A DNA stretch of 29,409 nt, taken from positions 1 through 29,409 of IMG/VR virus record IMGVR_UViG_3300027754_000326; one strand, written 5' to 3'. Positions 14,797 to 22,971 of this stretch are shown here, in pieces. Position 1 is the stretch's first letter. Every line of letters starts with the position of its first letter. Origin of the DNA: a virus. The notes below the pieces were generated by a model. It was not told the DNA's origin. It was given only the letters and a program-made list of their open reading frames with translations, and ran no database searches. The translations under genes and the position numbers were made by a program.

Positions 14797-15528
14797 TTAT
14801 TGAGTCCAGTTATTAACCAGTAAGGCTAAGTCCTGTGAGTTTACTGTGCCGTCTCCGTTAATGTCATGGGGATTAGGTTTAAAACTAGTAGATCCCCAGT
14901 CGGCTAGGAGTTCACCCATGTCTTGAGCTGTTATTAAACCATCATTATTAAAATCACCCTGTAAAGCAAGACCAACAGTTGTATTGGTTAAAGAACCAGT
15001 AACAATGTTTCCACCTACACAGCAACCATATACAATGCATTTTGCTGGGTATTGTGGATTAAGGGGTAGGTTGTCATATAGGATAACTTCTGATTGACCT
15101 AATCCAATTACTTTAAAGACAAACTTACACATCTGGGCTGGCTCTGTGGTTACAATCCATTGGTAACCTAGTACTCCATAGCAATAGAACATCCCATTAC
15201 CATCCTGTGGAGGAACTACTTCGTTACATAGGGTATAATCATTATTAGGAAAGGTAGAGTATCCAGCCATAACTCCAACATGAGATCCAATTAAGGATAC
15301 TCCTAGGAGTTGTAGTTTGGTATTGTCCCATCCAAAGGGTACATCAGCCACTACAAACCTCTGTGGGGCATTCTCAGCTGATACCATGAGCTGTACCTCA
15401 ATGATATCATCTAGTGCCACAGCCTGTTGTGGGGTTACTAGGGATAGGTTAAGCTTGGCTGTGGGGTCGTTTTGAGCCATAGCCATATTGGTCAGACATA
15501 CTAAAAAAAGACAAAATAAAAGTTTCAT
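14797..15528 (-). CDS. Secreted cohesin-like protein with dockerin type I repeat pair
   Basis: A 243-residue protein with a signal peptide at residues 1-18 (LLFCLFLVCLTNMAMA, cleavage likely before Gln19). About residues 25-185 form a beta-rich domain (LNLSLVTPQQAVALDDIIEV, then VPFGWDNTKLQLLGV) like cohesin-type sandwich domains, with seven Cys in the stretch from about 100 to 170. Residues 192-242 hold two Ca-binding loops, DFNNDGLITAQD (192-203) and DINGDGTVNSQD (222-233), each with the D-x-N-x-D-G-x-x-x-x-x-D pattern and followed by helices with LL.DWG and LV.NNW. This is the dockerin type I layout, in the style common in Planctomycetes. It follows fibre and accessory genes and is followed by a probable terminator. 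An exported, Ca-dependent binding protein is inferred; virion incorporation is unknown. Local base use is richer in G than the neighbours, hinting at acquisition. Confidence 0.8.
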   Translation of the reverse strand: MKLLFCLFLVCLTNMAMAQNDPTAKLNLSLVTPQQAVALDDIIEVQLMVSAENAPQRFVVADVPFGWDNTKLQLLGVSLIGSHVGVMAGYSTFPNNDYTLCNEVVPPQDGNGMFYCYGVLGYQWIVTTEPAQMCKFVFKVIGLGQSEVILYDNLPLNPQYPAKCIVYGCCVGGNIVTGSLTNTTVGLALQGDFNNDGLITAQDMGELLADWGSTSFKPNPHDINGDGTVNSQDLALLVNNWTQ

Positions 15529-15537
15529 ATAGTTCCT

Positions 15538-15939
15538 TTATAAATCTAAGATTTCTTCTTTTCTAGCTTCAGTTAGTAGATTAATACTAACTAAATAATC
15601 CATAGCTTGTATTGTTGTTGGGTTTGTTGTATTGATTTCTTGGGCAGCTTGACTTAATTGTAAAAAGTCTGCTACATTGACATCAGTAATAGCTTCTAAT
15701 CTAATTGCGGCTCGTTCTTCTGCTGTAAACCTTAATGTAAAGTCATAAGCTGTAAAAAGATATCTAAATGGATCATGGTGTGTAAATCTAGGTGAATTCA
15801 TTGGAGCATATATATCACCAATATCACAGATTTCAAACTCACCTAATGAAAGTAGTTCTGTTTCATAGGGCCAGACAAAACCCGATGGGGCTTCTATTAC
15901 GTTTACTACAGTAAAGTTAATGATTTCTGCGTATCTCAT
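15538..15939 (-). CDS. Probable fibre-associated protein, unrecognised
   Basis: A 133-residue acidic protein starting MRYAEIINFTVVNVIEAPSG, with a compact beta start, a GEFEICDIGDIYAPMN segment and a helical C-terminal half (LQLSQAAQEINTTNP, then NLLTEARKEEILDL). The opening, which resembles the start of fibre-assembly or fibre-accessory proteins, and the position directly after the Gly-rich fibre gene (8-base gap, GGAGAACC before the ATG) suggest a chaperone or cap for that fibre. No known domain is certain. Confidence 0.55.
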   Translation of the reverse strand: MRYAEIINFTVVNVIEAPSGFVWPYETELLSLGEFEICDIGDIYAPMNSPRFTHHDPFRYLFTAYDFTLRFTAEERAAIRLEAITDVNVADFLQLSQAAQEINTTNPTTIQAMDYLVSINLLTEARKEEILDL

Positions 15940-15947
15940 GGTTCTCC

Positions 15948-18392
15948 TTAAGTAAAATAAATTATTGCATACCCTACGCCACCTACGCCACCTGCTCCAC
16001 CACCTGTAAATCCTGCTCCTCCACCCCCTGCTCCTGACCCATTAAGACCTGCTCCCCCTACGCCACCTACGCCAGTGGCGTGTGAAGCACCTCCTCCTCC
16101 TCCTGGCCTACCCCAATCATGGATATTTCCTCTAGTATTGGTAGCTGCTCCTCCTACGCCTCCTGGGGCTACACCACCAGAGATATTGGCATCAGCAAAC
16201 GGATACATACCAAAAGATGCACCACCGTTAGTTGCAACATTGCTTGTATTAATTCCTCCACCAGAACCACCACCATATGGAGACATAGATAAACCTACAG
16301 CAATAGAAGATGTTTGTCCACCAAGGGAACCAGCACTGACTGAACCTGAGCCACCTGTGCCTCCAATATAACCTTGTGTTGCTCCAGTACCTCCTGTAGT
16401 TGTTGTTCCAGTAGCAGTACCTGCTCCACCTATACCACCAGCACCCCAGCAAAGTCTAGTTGCAGCTACTCCATTATAGGTAGCTGTAACAGTTGATGTT
16501 CCTCCGTTACCACCAGTTCCTGCTAAACCAGATGAGGATACAGGACCAGCACCAGATAAACCTCCAGCACCAGCAGTAAATGTCAATGTTCCTGTTATAT
16601 CAGCTACAGCATATTTTAATATATTTACAGAACCCCCTCCTCCTCCTGCACCACCACATCTATTCTGTCCGTTACTATTCCATGAACCACCACCTCCACC
16701 ACCGCCTCCACCACCACAAACTATTGTTATAAAGGTAGCACCTGCGGGTATTGTTATACCAGAAGTAGTGGTAGCATAGAATGCTCTAGTTGGGGTAAAT
16801 CCACTAGATATGGTTGCTGGAACCCAAGCTGTATTATTCCATTGAATAACTTGATTTAAAGTAGCACCTGTTTGTGTAAGATCACTGAGGGCATGAGTAT
16901 GGCTAGTAGGAGTCCTTGAATTAGATAATCTTGAATCATCTGCTCTTACTACTTGAGTTGCATTACTAACACCTGAAGTAACAAAATCTACAGCAAATGT
17001 TCTATTGGCAGATAGATCTCCACCACCTGTTAAACCTAGTCCTGCTGTTAAAGCTAAAGTGTCTGGAACAGGGGATGTAGCTATGGTAGCTAATTCACCA
17101 AGAGCGGATAGTTTAAGACCGTTGCCAATAGTAATGTGTTGACCTACTCCAGTTCCTCCTGTATTCCATCTACCAAGTAATCTCATTTGTGGTATAGATG
17201 TTATATCTGCTATTACATGAGTATGGGTAGCAGCGGCTATACCAGCTGATGATAGTGATCTATTGACCCACTCTGTTGTGTTCCATTGTAGTACATCGTT
17301 ATTAGCAAGGGAAGTTAATGCTGTATTAATCAATACTGAGCTAGGTAATCCTACAGTAATAACAGATCCAACTGTAGTTACTTCAACTTCACCAGCAGTA
17401 CCTACTACTGTAGTTCCTGTTGGTAAGACTCCTGAATCTTTAAGTCGTATACCAAAAAAATCAAGTTTAAAGTCAAGGTCAGATGGAGTACTACTATTTA
17501 AATTTTCAAATCTAATTCCAGTATTTAAAAATCCTGTAGGAACATTTGTTGAAATTACAACTTCAGTTCCACCATTAATAGTAAAGCCAACACTTGTTGC
17601 AGTTTTCTTTTGAATTTTAATGGTGTACCATGTATTATTTGCTATTGCAGTCGTTGTTCCAGTAGTAGTTGTCCCGTTATTTACAGTTGGGGTCCATACT
17701 CCACCGCGTGTACCTACTATAAATATACCTTGTGAAGGTGAATCTGGATTGTCAAATAAACCTAATTTAATATTGTATCCATCAGTCGGACTAGCCGTTG
17801 GAGTTTTTATAGTAAAGTAAACAGTATTAAAATCAGTAAAAATAAACGAATCAATTCCAGGTGAGTTGGTCATTGACATATAACCATACCCATATCCAGA
17901 AAGTAATCTAACAAGAACAATTCCTAAGTGTCCTGTTTCTGAATCATTTTCAAGTATATTTAAACTACTAGGAACTAAAGTATTACTACTTGTTGTTCTA
18001 GGTCCTGAAGAGTATGAGTAAGGACTTAATGTACCAGATTCATTGCCATTACTTTGAGCAATAAAATTATCCCATATAATAATGGGTTGATCTGGATCAC
18101 TTGGATCTATACCTCCTCCACCACCACCTACTGGATTGTTTTCTAAATCTTGAATTCTAGCTTCCCAAGAAGTTATATTGGTTACGTCTAGTTGTTGGTT
18201 TAAAAGAATAGTAGTTGAGTCAGTCTGAGTAGATACATTACCTAGGGTATTACCAATAGTAGCGAGATTTTGTGTTGTTTGTTCAACAAAGGTATTAAGG
18301 TTAACTATAGTACTATTGTCAGTAGCACTTGTTGTACCTTGTAATTTTCGATCTTCACGACGTGCATGAGCTGATTGTTTGCGATCTGTCAT
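15948..18392 (-). CDS. Large Gly-rich tail fibre/adhesin with lectin-like domain
   Basis: An 814-residue modular protein. Residues 1-95: charged N-terminus (RKQSAHARREDRKLQG) and Thr/Asn/Gln-rich coiled-coil-like part ending in a poly-Gly linker. About 100-320: a probable concanavalin-A-like jelly roll (YFTIKTPTASPTDGYNIKLG, NNTWYTIKIQKKTATSVGFT, FKLDFFGIRLKDSG). About 330-560: fibre repeats (LANNDVLQWNTTEWVNR, VIQWNNTAWVPA) and two His motifs of fibre type (ATHTHVIADIT, SHTHALSDLT). About 575-814: a Gly-rich domain opening with TSGITIPAGATFITIVCGG, then many GGxGG segments, like Gly-rich tip domains of other phage adhesins. It likely trimerises and binds the host. It overlaps the preceding 48-aa gene as ATGA. 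Confidence 0.8.
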   Translation of the reverse strand: MTDRKQSAHARREDRKLQGTTSATDNSTIVNLNTFVEQTTQNLATIGNTLGNVSTQTDSTTILLNQQLDVTNITSWEARIQDLENNPVGGGGGGIDPSDPDQPIIIWDNFIAQSNGNESGTLSPYSYSSGPRTTSSNTLVPSSLNILENDSETGHLGIVLVRLLSGYGYGYMSMTNSPGIDSFIFTDFNTVYFTIKTPTASPTDGYNIKLGLFDNPDSPSQGIFIVGTRGGVWTPTVNNGTTTTGTTTAIANNTWYTIKIQKKTATSVGFTINGGTEVVISTNVPTGFLNTGIRFENLNSSTPSDLDFKLDFFGIRLKDSGVLPTGTTVVGTAGEVEVTTVGSVITVGLPSSVLINTALTSLANNDVLQWNTTEWVNRSLSSAGIAAATHTHVIADITSIPQMRLLGRWNTGGTGVGQHITIGNGLKLSALGELATIATSPVPDTLALTAGLGLTGGGDLSANRTFAVDFVTSGVSNATQVVRADDSRLSNSRTPTSHTHALSDLTQTGATLNQVIQWNNTAWVPATISSGFTPTRAFYATTTSGITIPAGATFITIVCGGGGGGGGGGSWNSNGQNRCGGAGGGGGSVNILKYAVADITGTLTFTAGAGGLSGAGPVSSSGLAGTGGNGGTSTVTATYNGVAATRLCWGAGGIGGAGTATGTTTTGGTGATQGYIGGTGGSGSVSAGSLGGQTSSIAVGLSMSPYGGGSGGGINTSNVATNGGASFGMYPFADANISGGVAPGGVGGAATNTRGNIHDWGRPGGGGGASHATGVGGVGGAGLNGSGAGGGGAGFTGGGAGGVGGVGYAIIYFT

Positions 18393-21057: not shown

Positions 21058-22971
21058 TTAACTTACCTCACAACCACCTGCTGTACAAGCAAGGGCGCGA
21101 GCATTTGTGGTGCCATCCTCTAACTCATATAGTGAGAGAAGACTAAAATCAACGCTGGTTGGCATAGTACTCTGCATTTTATCATACTGTTCTTCAGTAA
21201 TCATTTCAAAGGGTGCTTGCTGATATACATGGTTATCCCTCGGTAAGAAAGAAATACCAGAAATTGCTTCCCAATGTTTCCATACCCAATCCCCAATAGC
21301 TAGGAAATCAGAGTCACTGTAATTCACAGTAATGCTTGGCTTGTGATCACAGTACCAAAGTTGATATGCTAACCACAAATTAAGATGACCAAGAGCATTG
21401 ATCTGAGACTCTGTAACACCAAAGTCTGCCTTAATAGGGAAAGAGAATATTGTAGTTTGTTCTGCTTTCATTACACAATCTTCATTAGGAACTCCTGAAT
21501 CAATCATGAATCTTGCCATTGGTGAGTTCTTAGCCATGCGTATACGTCGGATATAGAACTTACTAAATCTTGGATGTAATCCAGAAGCAGTACCAGCAAC
21601 ACAGCTAGTAGTACCTTCAGGTTTAATACAGGTAATAGATACAGAGGGATTAATTCCAATATAATTAGCCCATTCCTCATTAGTTTTATGGGAAACAAAT
21701 TTCAAGACTCCTAGTAATTTCTGTAGTTCTTCTGGACCATCACCACCATTGGTTAGGTTGTTGTCAAAGATACCAGTCATACTAACGCCAAGTAATCTTT
21801 CCTCTTCACAATTATCTTTGAAAGAGGAATCATTATTGGACTCAAAATACGAGAAATTGGTAAGCGCACTCTGTAACGTTCCCAGAATAGTCGCCAACCT
21901 AATCTTATTAATGAGCTGGGGGGCCTGGTCTTCAGGCCGTACAGCAATCGTGGACAAATTACAGAATTGATTTGGTCGTAGGATGATTTCAGAACAGGGA
22001 TTAGTCCCAAATTCATACTCTTCCTTTCTACCAGCACGTTTTGCAATAAGACGCATTGCTTCTCTATTACAAATACCACGTTCACCTGATCGTGAGTTGT
22101 ATAGAGATGACCATTCCCGCATAAAGGAACCCATGTCTGGCTTTGTTTCGTATACAACAGAGTTGTTTGCAAGAGCACGATGTCCATTCCTTTCCCACCA
22201 AGGTCCACTCTTGGCATGAGCCATTTCATAATCAGATAGATCAGATAGACTGATTAAGGCAGAGCGCCTAACCCCACCAGAGACAATAGAATCTGCAATT
22301 TGACATACAAGGTCATGTACTTCTAGTGGTTTAAGCTTACGTCCACGGGCCGCATTAAAGATGTTAGCCGTGAACTTGATTAATCTAATAAAGGGTTCTG
22401 GACCAGATGCTCGACCACCAAAGGTCTTTAGCCTAGCCCCAGCTGGGCGAATATTTGAACAATCCATTTCATAATGTTTACCTGCATATAAAGCATTAAC
22501 AAACTCAACATAAGCACCAGCCCACCCCTCTCGGGAATCAGCTACCCTATAAACTAAACCTTTAGTAAAGGATTCAGGAATAAGAGGAAGGTTATTAACA
22601 TTCTCTTTTTCAACTGAGAACCCAACACCCGTACCACACGCTAGTGCATACAGGATATTACCTAGGTCTTGAGTAGTATTAATGGCAATATAACAACAAT
22701 TATAAGCTGCTACATCATCTTTGTCAAGGGCAGGACCTGCCGTCATTAGGGTTCTCATGGAACCAAAGACTTCTCGGTCTTTCATCATCTTACGAGCAAG
22801 ATCAATATCTCCCATTTTTTCAGCAGGAAGCTTAGTTTTAAGATCTAAACGATTAATAAGATAATCAAAGTAACGATCTACGGCTTCCTCCCATGTTTCT
22901 CTACGGCTTTGTTCTGGTAACCAACGGCAATACTTATCTACTGCGACAAAATCTTCAAATACTTTGCTCAT
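21058..22971 (-). CDS. Adenosylcobalamin-dependent ribonucleoside-triphosphate reductase (class II, monomeric type)
   Basis: A 637-residue enzyme that reduces ribonucleotides to deoxyribonucleotides for phage DNA synthesis, with coenzyme B12 as radical source. Diagnostic residues: a Cys pair NCCYIAI (92-93), of which one equals the first redox Cys; NPCSEIILRPNQFC with Cys326, Glu328 and Cys337, in the same C-x-E-x8-C spacing as Cys408/Glu410/Cys419 of the Lactobacillus enzyme; and a C-terminal CTAGGC pair (629, 634), the shuttle Cys in the expected C-x4-C spacing. SDSIVSGGVRRSALISLSD and IRPAGARLKTFGGRASGPEP are family signatures. No separate small subunit is seen. It overlaps the exonuclease by 17 bases. 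The phage presumably relies on host-derived B12. Confidence 0.93.
   Translation of the reverse strand: MSKVFEDFVAVDKYCRWLPEQSRRETWEEAVDRYFDYLINRLDLKTKLPAEKMGDIDLARKMMKDREVFGSMRTLMTAGPALDKDDVAAYNCCYIAINTTQDLGNILYALACGTGVGFSVEKENVNNLPLIPESFTKGLVYRVADSREGWAGAYVEFVNALYAGKHYEMDCSNIRPAGARLKTFGGRASGPEPFIRLIKFTANIFNAARGRKLKPLEVHDLVCQIADSIVSGGVRRSALISLSDLSDYEMAHAKSGPWWERNGHRALANNSVVYETKPDMGSFMREWSSLYNSRSGERGICNREAMRLIAKRAGRKEEYEFGTNPCSEIILRPNQFCNLSTIAVRPEDQAPQLINKIRLATILGTLQSALTNFSYFESNNDSSFKDNCEEERLLGVSMTGIFDNNLTNGGDGPEELQKLLGVLKFVSHKTNEEWANYIGINPSVSITCIKPEGTTSCVAGTASGLHPRFSKFYIRRIRMAKNSPMARFMIDSGVPNEDCVMKAEQTTIFSFPIKADFGVTESQINALGHLNLWLAYQLWYCDHKPSITVNYSDSDFLAIGDWVWKHWEAISGISFLPRDNHVYQQAPFEMITEEQYDKMQSTMPTSVDFSLLSLYELEDGTTNARALACTAGGCEVS

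Follow-up and report, generated by a model that had tools for sequence, protein, structure and literature searches.

What does a podovirus do with a protein that appears to be exported from the host cell and that ends in a dockerin? The window, by which we mean the whole 29,409-base virus record analyzed here, carries genes for T7-like podovirus tail proteins, major capsid protein, scaffold, head-tail connector, class II ribonucleotide reductase (RNR), exonuclease, family A DNA polymerase and primase-helicase, and all of these surrounding phage genes lie on one strand, which they share with the dockerin gene. This same-strand set of structural and replication genes confirms the podovirus late operon proposed in a first-pass annotation of the sequence. 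The features used below are the following:

14797..15528 (-), gene for a 243-aa exported cohesin-like/dockerin protein; open reading frame (ORF) with ATG start, found in 12 other viral contigs, dN far below dS
15475..15528 (-), signal peptide, residues 1-18, predicted cleavage AMA|Q; hydrophobic core followed by AxA|Q
14965..15465 (-), N-terminal cohesin-like domain, residues 22-188; alignments and a profile-profile match to cohesins
14812..14958 (-), type I dockerin, residues 191-239; Pfam PF00404
14920..14955 (-), first Ca-binding loop, D192-D203; DFNNDGLITAQD in the translation
14830..14865 (-), second Ca-binding loop, D222-D233; DINGDGTVNSQD in the translation
15538..15939 (-), 133-aa neighbor just upstream; PHROG match (phrog_25252)
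15948..18392 (-), upstream tail protein (SO2946-like domain, Gly-rich end); PHROG tail families, PF22237

Promoter-like or terminator-like signals are not in excess around the window gene. The phrog_25252 neighbor is confined to the closest relatives of the window (L001 and L012), and is thus not a fixed partner of the dockerin gene. The tail protein beyond it is 814 aa long, and its long Gly-rich C-terminal end varies between close relatives.

Architecture of the protein

From the N to the C terminus, the 243-aa protein consists of a signal peptide, a 167-residue Cys-bearing domain and a dockerin. Residues 1-18 have the look of a Sec-type signal peptide (MKLLFCLFLVCLTNMAMA|Q; 11-residue hydropathy of 3.0; AxA|Q), and there is no lipobox in this region. 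The signal-peptide-like N terminus, already noted in the first-pass reading, is retained in all eight complete phage copies compared, in spite of sequence turnover: the signal peptide drifts among copies, down to 18% identity, while the mature part is conserved, a combination that fits an exported protein. These features argue strongly that the protein is exported by the host.

The C-terminal domain matches the Pfam Dockerin_1 profile (PF00404) over residues 191-239 (E = 4.8e-8; 33.5 bits against a cut-off of 22.9), a genome-wide search places a dockerin at the same coordinates (E = 6.6e-10), and solved dockerins (6kg9 and others) match the phage protein directly (E = 1.5e-4). Both EF-hand-like Ca-binding loops are complete and lie exactly where they were first noted, at residues 192-203 and 222-233; they are conserved in all phage copies, and 10 of 10 copies match the profile. 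Judged by its sequence, the domain is a true type I dockerin and not a chance match, and Ca-dependent binding to a cohesin is predicted. Like the type I dockerins of cellulosomes (PF00404; solved structures 6kg9 and 2y3n), it has two Ca-binding loops and a significant profile match; by contrast, it has no attached glycoside hydrolase, and the carriers have no cellulosome genes. Indeed, neither of the marks by which a cellulosome component would be recognized was found: the protein contains no enzyme domain, and a search for a cohesin partner, as the first-pass annotation had envisaged, returned no PF00963 domain in ten carrier records. The cut-off of the GC-type dockerin family NF041540 (29 bits) is reached neither by the phage protein (14.8 bits) nor by two bacterial homologues scanned against it (23-25 bits). 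An AlphaFold2 model of the full protein, from a 10-row alignment, places helices at residues 201-209 and 231-239 with very low confidence (pLDDT 36), and a model of the N-terminal domain from a 7-row alignment has a pLDDT of 42; both were left out of fold searches, given these low values, which reflect the shallow alignments.

The N-terminal domain contains an NEVVPPQDGNG core and five cysteines in the mature part (101, 116, 164, 169 and 170) that are invariant across all phage copies; Cys134 is not. Its description as cohesin-like was upheld in part. A search of the phage copies with the Pfam cohesin profile (PF00963) gave no match, and one bacterial relative reached 14.2 bits, under the cut-off of 24.1. 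When the phage sequences alone were compared with cohesins by hhalign, the best of 30 shuffles scored higher than the real alignment. When the bacterial relatives described below were added, a set of 29 Paenibacillus cohesins was matched in the expected strand register with a score of 36.7 (probability 77%), and the best of 100 column shuffles scored 19.5. A likeness to cohesins is therefore supported by profile-profile comparison once bacterial relatives are included, and we write "cohesin-like" instead of "cohesin" because the domain falls short of the Pfam threshold. The Paenibacillus phyllosphaerae genome G801 (the genome of L017) has 41 cohesin-domain matches, most of them in proteins longer than 1000 aa.

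Spread, selection and recombination among phages

The first-pass annotation treated the gene as a property of one phage; instead, it is shared across very different phages. IMG/VR holds 12 other viral contigs that encode the protein, at 72-100% identity (13 with L001, which is possibly the window's own genome), and four carriers have partial copies (L009, L010, L012/L020 and L021). No match was found among GenBank phages, a plasmid search gave two matches, both dockerin-only, and a scan for the pattern YGCCVGGN gave five extra stretches, all of them short chance frames. In the open-access literature searched on dockerins and phages, no account of a phage dockerin was found. Grouping the carriers by gene content and pairwise BLAST reveals at least four phage lineages. 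Podovirus group 1 includes the window with L001, L002, L003 and L012, and synteny is near-identical in L001, L002 and L012; podovirus group 2 (L007, L008) has a median identity to group 1 of 44-45%. Two T4-like groups (L005/L010/L021 and L006/L011) carry UvsX, a DnaB-like helicase and a family B polymerase; the closest match to this polymerase in GenBank, at 50%, comes from a cyanomyovirus. The remaining carriers are L004, a 90-kb phage whose gene set differs, and L009, a small fragment. The 12 other viral contigs, the several gene contexts and the near-identical synteny, together with a gene GC close to that of the phages and the dockerin match itself (E = 5e-8), make it extremely improbable that the gene is an artefact of host contamination, of a misassembled contig or of a chance EF-hand-like sequence.

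In most comparisons across lineages, the dockerin protein is the most conserved of the shared genes: its identity is about 80-94% among podovirus group 1, the T4-like groups and L004, and 71-79% against podovirus group 2, while in the same comparisons RNR is at 50-84% and thymidylate synthase at 44-62%. The exception is the pair G002/G004, in which a fibre tip is even closer. The C-terminal 103 residues of this tip, which belongs to tail-fibre-like proteins (L002:6062-7231, L004:1-873, L046:1126-2799), are 92% identical between podovirus G002 and the unrelated 90-kb phage G004 and 45% identical in T4-like G010. The shared tip is probably receptor-binding, and its presence in the three phages suggests the same receptors or common hosts. 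Besides the dockerin gene, one further gene recurs in nearly all carrier lineages: the class II (B12-dependent) RNR, at 21058-22971 in the window. Two apparent tandem duplications were also seen: neighboring proteins of ∼600 aa in a T4-like phage (L038:4704-6506 and L038:6571-8406) have closely similar N termini (xxxxWVGGxTxTxGSYTNxLGNF), and adjacent proteins of ∼360 aa in the 90-kb phage (L032:1921-3036 and L032:3042-4115) begin MAFNNSNRS[LF]ASQRFINSINAIVIQ.

Strong purifying selection acts on the gene: in most comparisons between lineages, synonymous sites have reached saturation or come close to it, with a dN of only 0.07-0.2, and dN/dS is about 0.03-0.09 across lineages where it is computable. 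It also recombines. In the T4-like pair L006 and L011, the flanking DNA is mostly 95-100% identical, while inside the gene identity is 68-75%; L005 and L010 are about 98% identical outside the gene and 65-73% identical at about residues 143-183. Neither T4-like group forms a clade in the gene tree (AU p = 1e-6 and 3e-5), indicating that copies recombine among related phages. For the podovirus copies, a single clade is compatible with the data (p = 0.15), so that the tree lends no support to transfer between the two podovirus groups.

The position of the gene differs from one lineage to another. In L004 and the phage group of the window, it comes after tail-fibre genes. Its neighbors in one T4-like group are an endonuclease gene and a RuvC-like gene; in the other T4-like group, it is flanked by a 270-aa ORF and an endonuclease-like gene. 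In L007 and L008 it stands shortly before an 823-aa ORF, a putative RNA polymerase to judge by its location and its G002 counterparts, in an apparent early block. The gene is preceded in the L006/L011 group by a terminator-like hairpin, followed by the motif TATAAATA 24 nt before the start; of the motif's 19 occurrences in this group, 13 are 5-62 nt before an ORF, compared with at most 4 for letter permutations, and we take it to be a T4-type late promoter. The gene is thus cargo, with varying positions and expression classes, which argues against a structural role. This bears directly on the earlier proposal that the protein is a virion-associated adhesin, which would sit on the tail or capsid and tether virions to host surfaces or particles. 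Its place after the tail-fibre genes in the window's group and in the 90-kb phage is what one would expect of such a protein, but the T4-like phages and podovirus group 2 carry the gene among replication or early genes and not beside tail genes, it accompanies very different phage types, and a Sec signal peptide would remove the protein from the cytoplasm, where virions are assembled. We consider a virion adhesin quite unlikely.

Relatives in Phycisphaerae

If the protein is not part of the virion, where does it come from? A short-pattern search of 84,980 genomes found only dockerin domains inside larger proteins, and a phage-only profile of the N-terminal domain found no match in Planctomycetota or Bacteroidota. 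A search of 397 genomes of Phycisphaerae, a group within the Planctomycetota, with the phage-only full-length profile detected full-length homologues in four (E = 4e-30 to 1.2e-34) and weaker matches in others. These homologues have the same order of parts: signal peptide, N-terminal domain with an NExxPPxDG core, dockerin. With a broader profile, a full-length copy was found in about 20 of the 181 genomes of one dockerin-rich Phycisphaerae family, with E-values that are inflated for the four genomes whose rows were part of the profile; two of these copies contain a stop codon. With the N-domain profile, we matched none of 148 Bacteroidota genomes, none of 149 Bacillota genomes and 2 of 284 evenly drawn Planctomycetota genomes. 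Among the groups searched, exported proteins of Phycisphaerae are the sole full-length non-viral relatives found.

These Phycisphaerae proteins, which lie near NCBIfam NF041540, share with the phage protein an NExxPPxDGxxxxY core, the signal peptide, the C-terminal dockerin and a similar length, and they align with it over the full length at roughly 24-36% identity. They differ in that they do not have the five cysteines that are invariant in the phage copies, and in their C termini: phage copies end in NNW(S/TQ), whereas most Phycisphaerae copies carry a WGxC tail. The idea that loss of WGxC is a phage-specific release trick was dropped, since several bacterial copies also have no such tail. 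Genomes with a homologue contain roughly a hundred dockerin candidates each. In several bacteria the homologue adjoins another gene for a signal-peptide/dockerin protein (about 315-340 aa), and some of them also have a gene for a 550-aa exported protein nearby. In two Phycisphaerae genomes, the same N-terminal domain occurs in proteins of about 900-1400 aa (L152:1910-4654 and L151:1-4125), one of which has MopE-type metal-binding motifs.

In a tree of 31 sequences, all phage copies group together (100/100), and a long stem leads to their clade. The homologue-bearing Phycisphaerae genomes have a GC content of about 60-65%, compared with 37-45% for the phages; this gap, and the identity of no more than about 36% to the nearest homologues, weigh against the explanation offered below. 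The suggestion that the gene was taken from the host is borne out to the extent that full-length homologues of the same architecture exist in bacteria of this type, and the sequence comparisons strongly point to a host-type origin and to Phycisphaerae as the hosts of these phages. We infer one old capture from a Phycisphaerae-like host, followed by spread among its phages; the direction, from host to phage, is taken from the breadth of the bacterial family, not from a rooted tree.

Possible roles during infection

In lake Phycisphaerae (Nemodlikiaceae, CL500-3), an extracellular cohesin/dockerin complex, the "planctosome", has been proposed, with a peptide-degrading role and with an adaptor that has a signal peptide and dockerin, HYR and cohesin domains (PMC6461901). 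Given this proposed adaptor and the abundance of dockerins in the homologue-bearing genomes, a phage copy would most simply insert into such a network or cap it.

We propose that the gene is an auxiliary one, that phages obtained it long ago from a Phycisphaerae bacterium rich in dockerins and have since handed it on to one another, and that the host Sec pathway would export its product during infection. Whether in the periplasm or on the cell surface, the dockerin and cohesin-like modules of this product would then plug into extracellular cohesin/dockerin assemblies of the host, where the protein would take the part of an adaptor or capping subunit. Assemblies occupied or remodelled in this way may mask the cell surface, with the result that competing phages are shut out and new virions are kept from adhering to their own debris. 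The parts of this explanation differ in strength: the domain order, the homology, the distribution over phages, the purifying selection and the recombination are observed; docking into the host network, judged from the domains and their relatives, has slightly better than an even chance of being right; surface masking is the benefit that we rank first, yet it is a guess that we think rather unlikely to be correct; and the explanation as a whole falls a little short of even.

The masking step has a precedent in the way that it would work. Llp of phage T5 is an exported protein of a lytic phage that is thought to act on the host surface, in surface masking and superinfection exclusion. The likeness to Llp is one of mode of action and does not come from sequence comparison; moreover, Llp is a lipoprotein, whereas the phage dockerin protein has no lipobox. 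The case for superinfection exclusion by the dockerin protein is circumstantial, by analogy with Llp.

Two other roles would also begin with export. The protein might be an adaptor that strengthens an extracellular complex of the host for enzyme action or particle attachment, and so feeds the infected cell. Its homologues belong to a large exported set of dockerin proteins, and a peptide-degrading complex is just what has been proposed for lake Phycisphaerae; however, the gene is placed late both in the window phage and in the T4-like group C, which leaves little time for such a benefit, and the protein has no enzyme domain, so that we regard this role as unlikely. Alternatively, the protein might compete for cohesin/dockerin contacts in the matrix, loosening aggregates so that progeny spread. 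A release factor of this kind would draw on the same docking evidence as our preferred explanation and would be well served by late expression, but in podovirus group 2 the gene lies in an apparent early block, and we judge a role in release improbable.

Our preferred explanation, of a host-derived exported protein that docks onto the host network and masks the surface, leads to a broader proposal that we offer tentatively and with some doubt: different phages of the same Phycisphaerae hosts would have in common, and exchange by recombination, a secreted decoy subunit with which they hijack the extracellular cohesin/dockerin system of the host. If true, this would be a new class of interference, in which viruses act on a network that assembles proteins outside the bacterial cell. 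The locus is already a clear case of one secreted gene that is shared and recombined between phages with unrelated replication and virion modules. If the host link holds, the gene could serve as a metagenome marker for phages of uncultured Phycisphaerae. These bacteria can encode a hundred or more dockerin proteins per genome; a strongly selected viral member of this set is a sign that the system is important at the cell surface, and offers one small protein as a probe for it.
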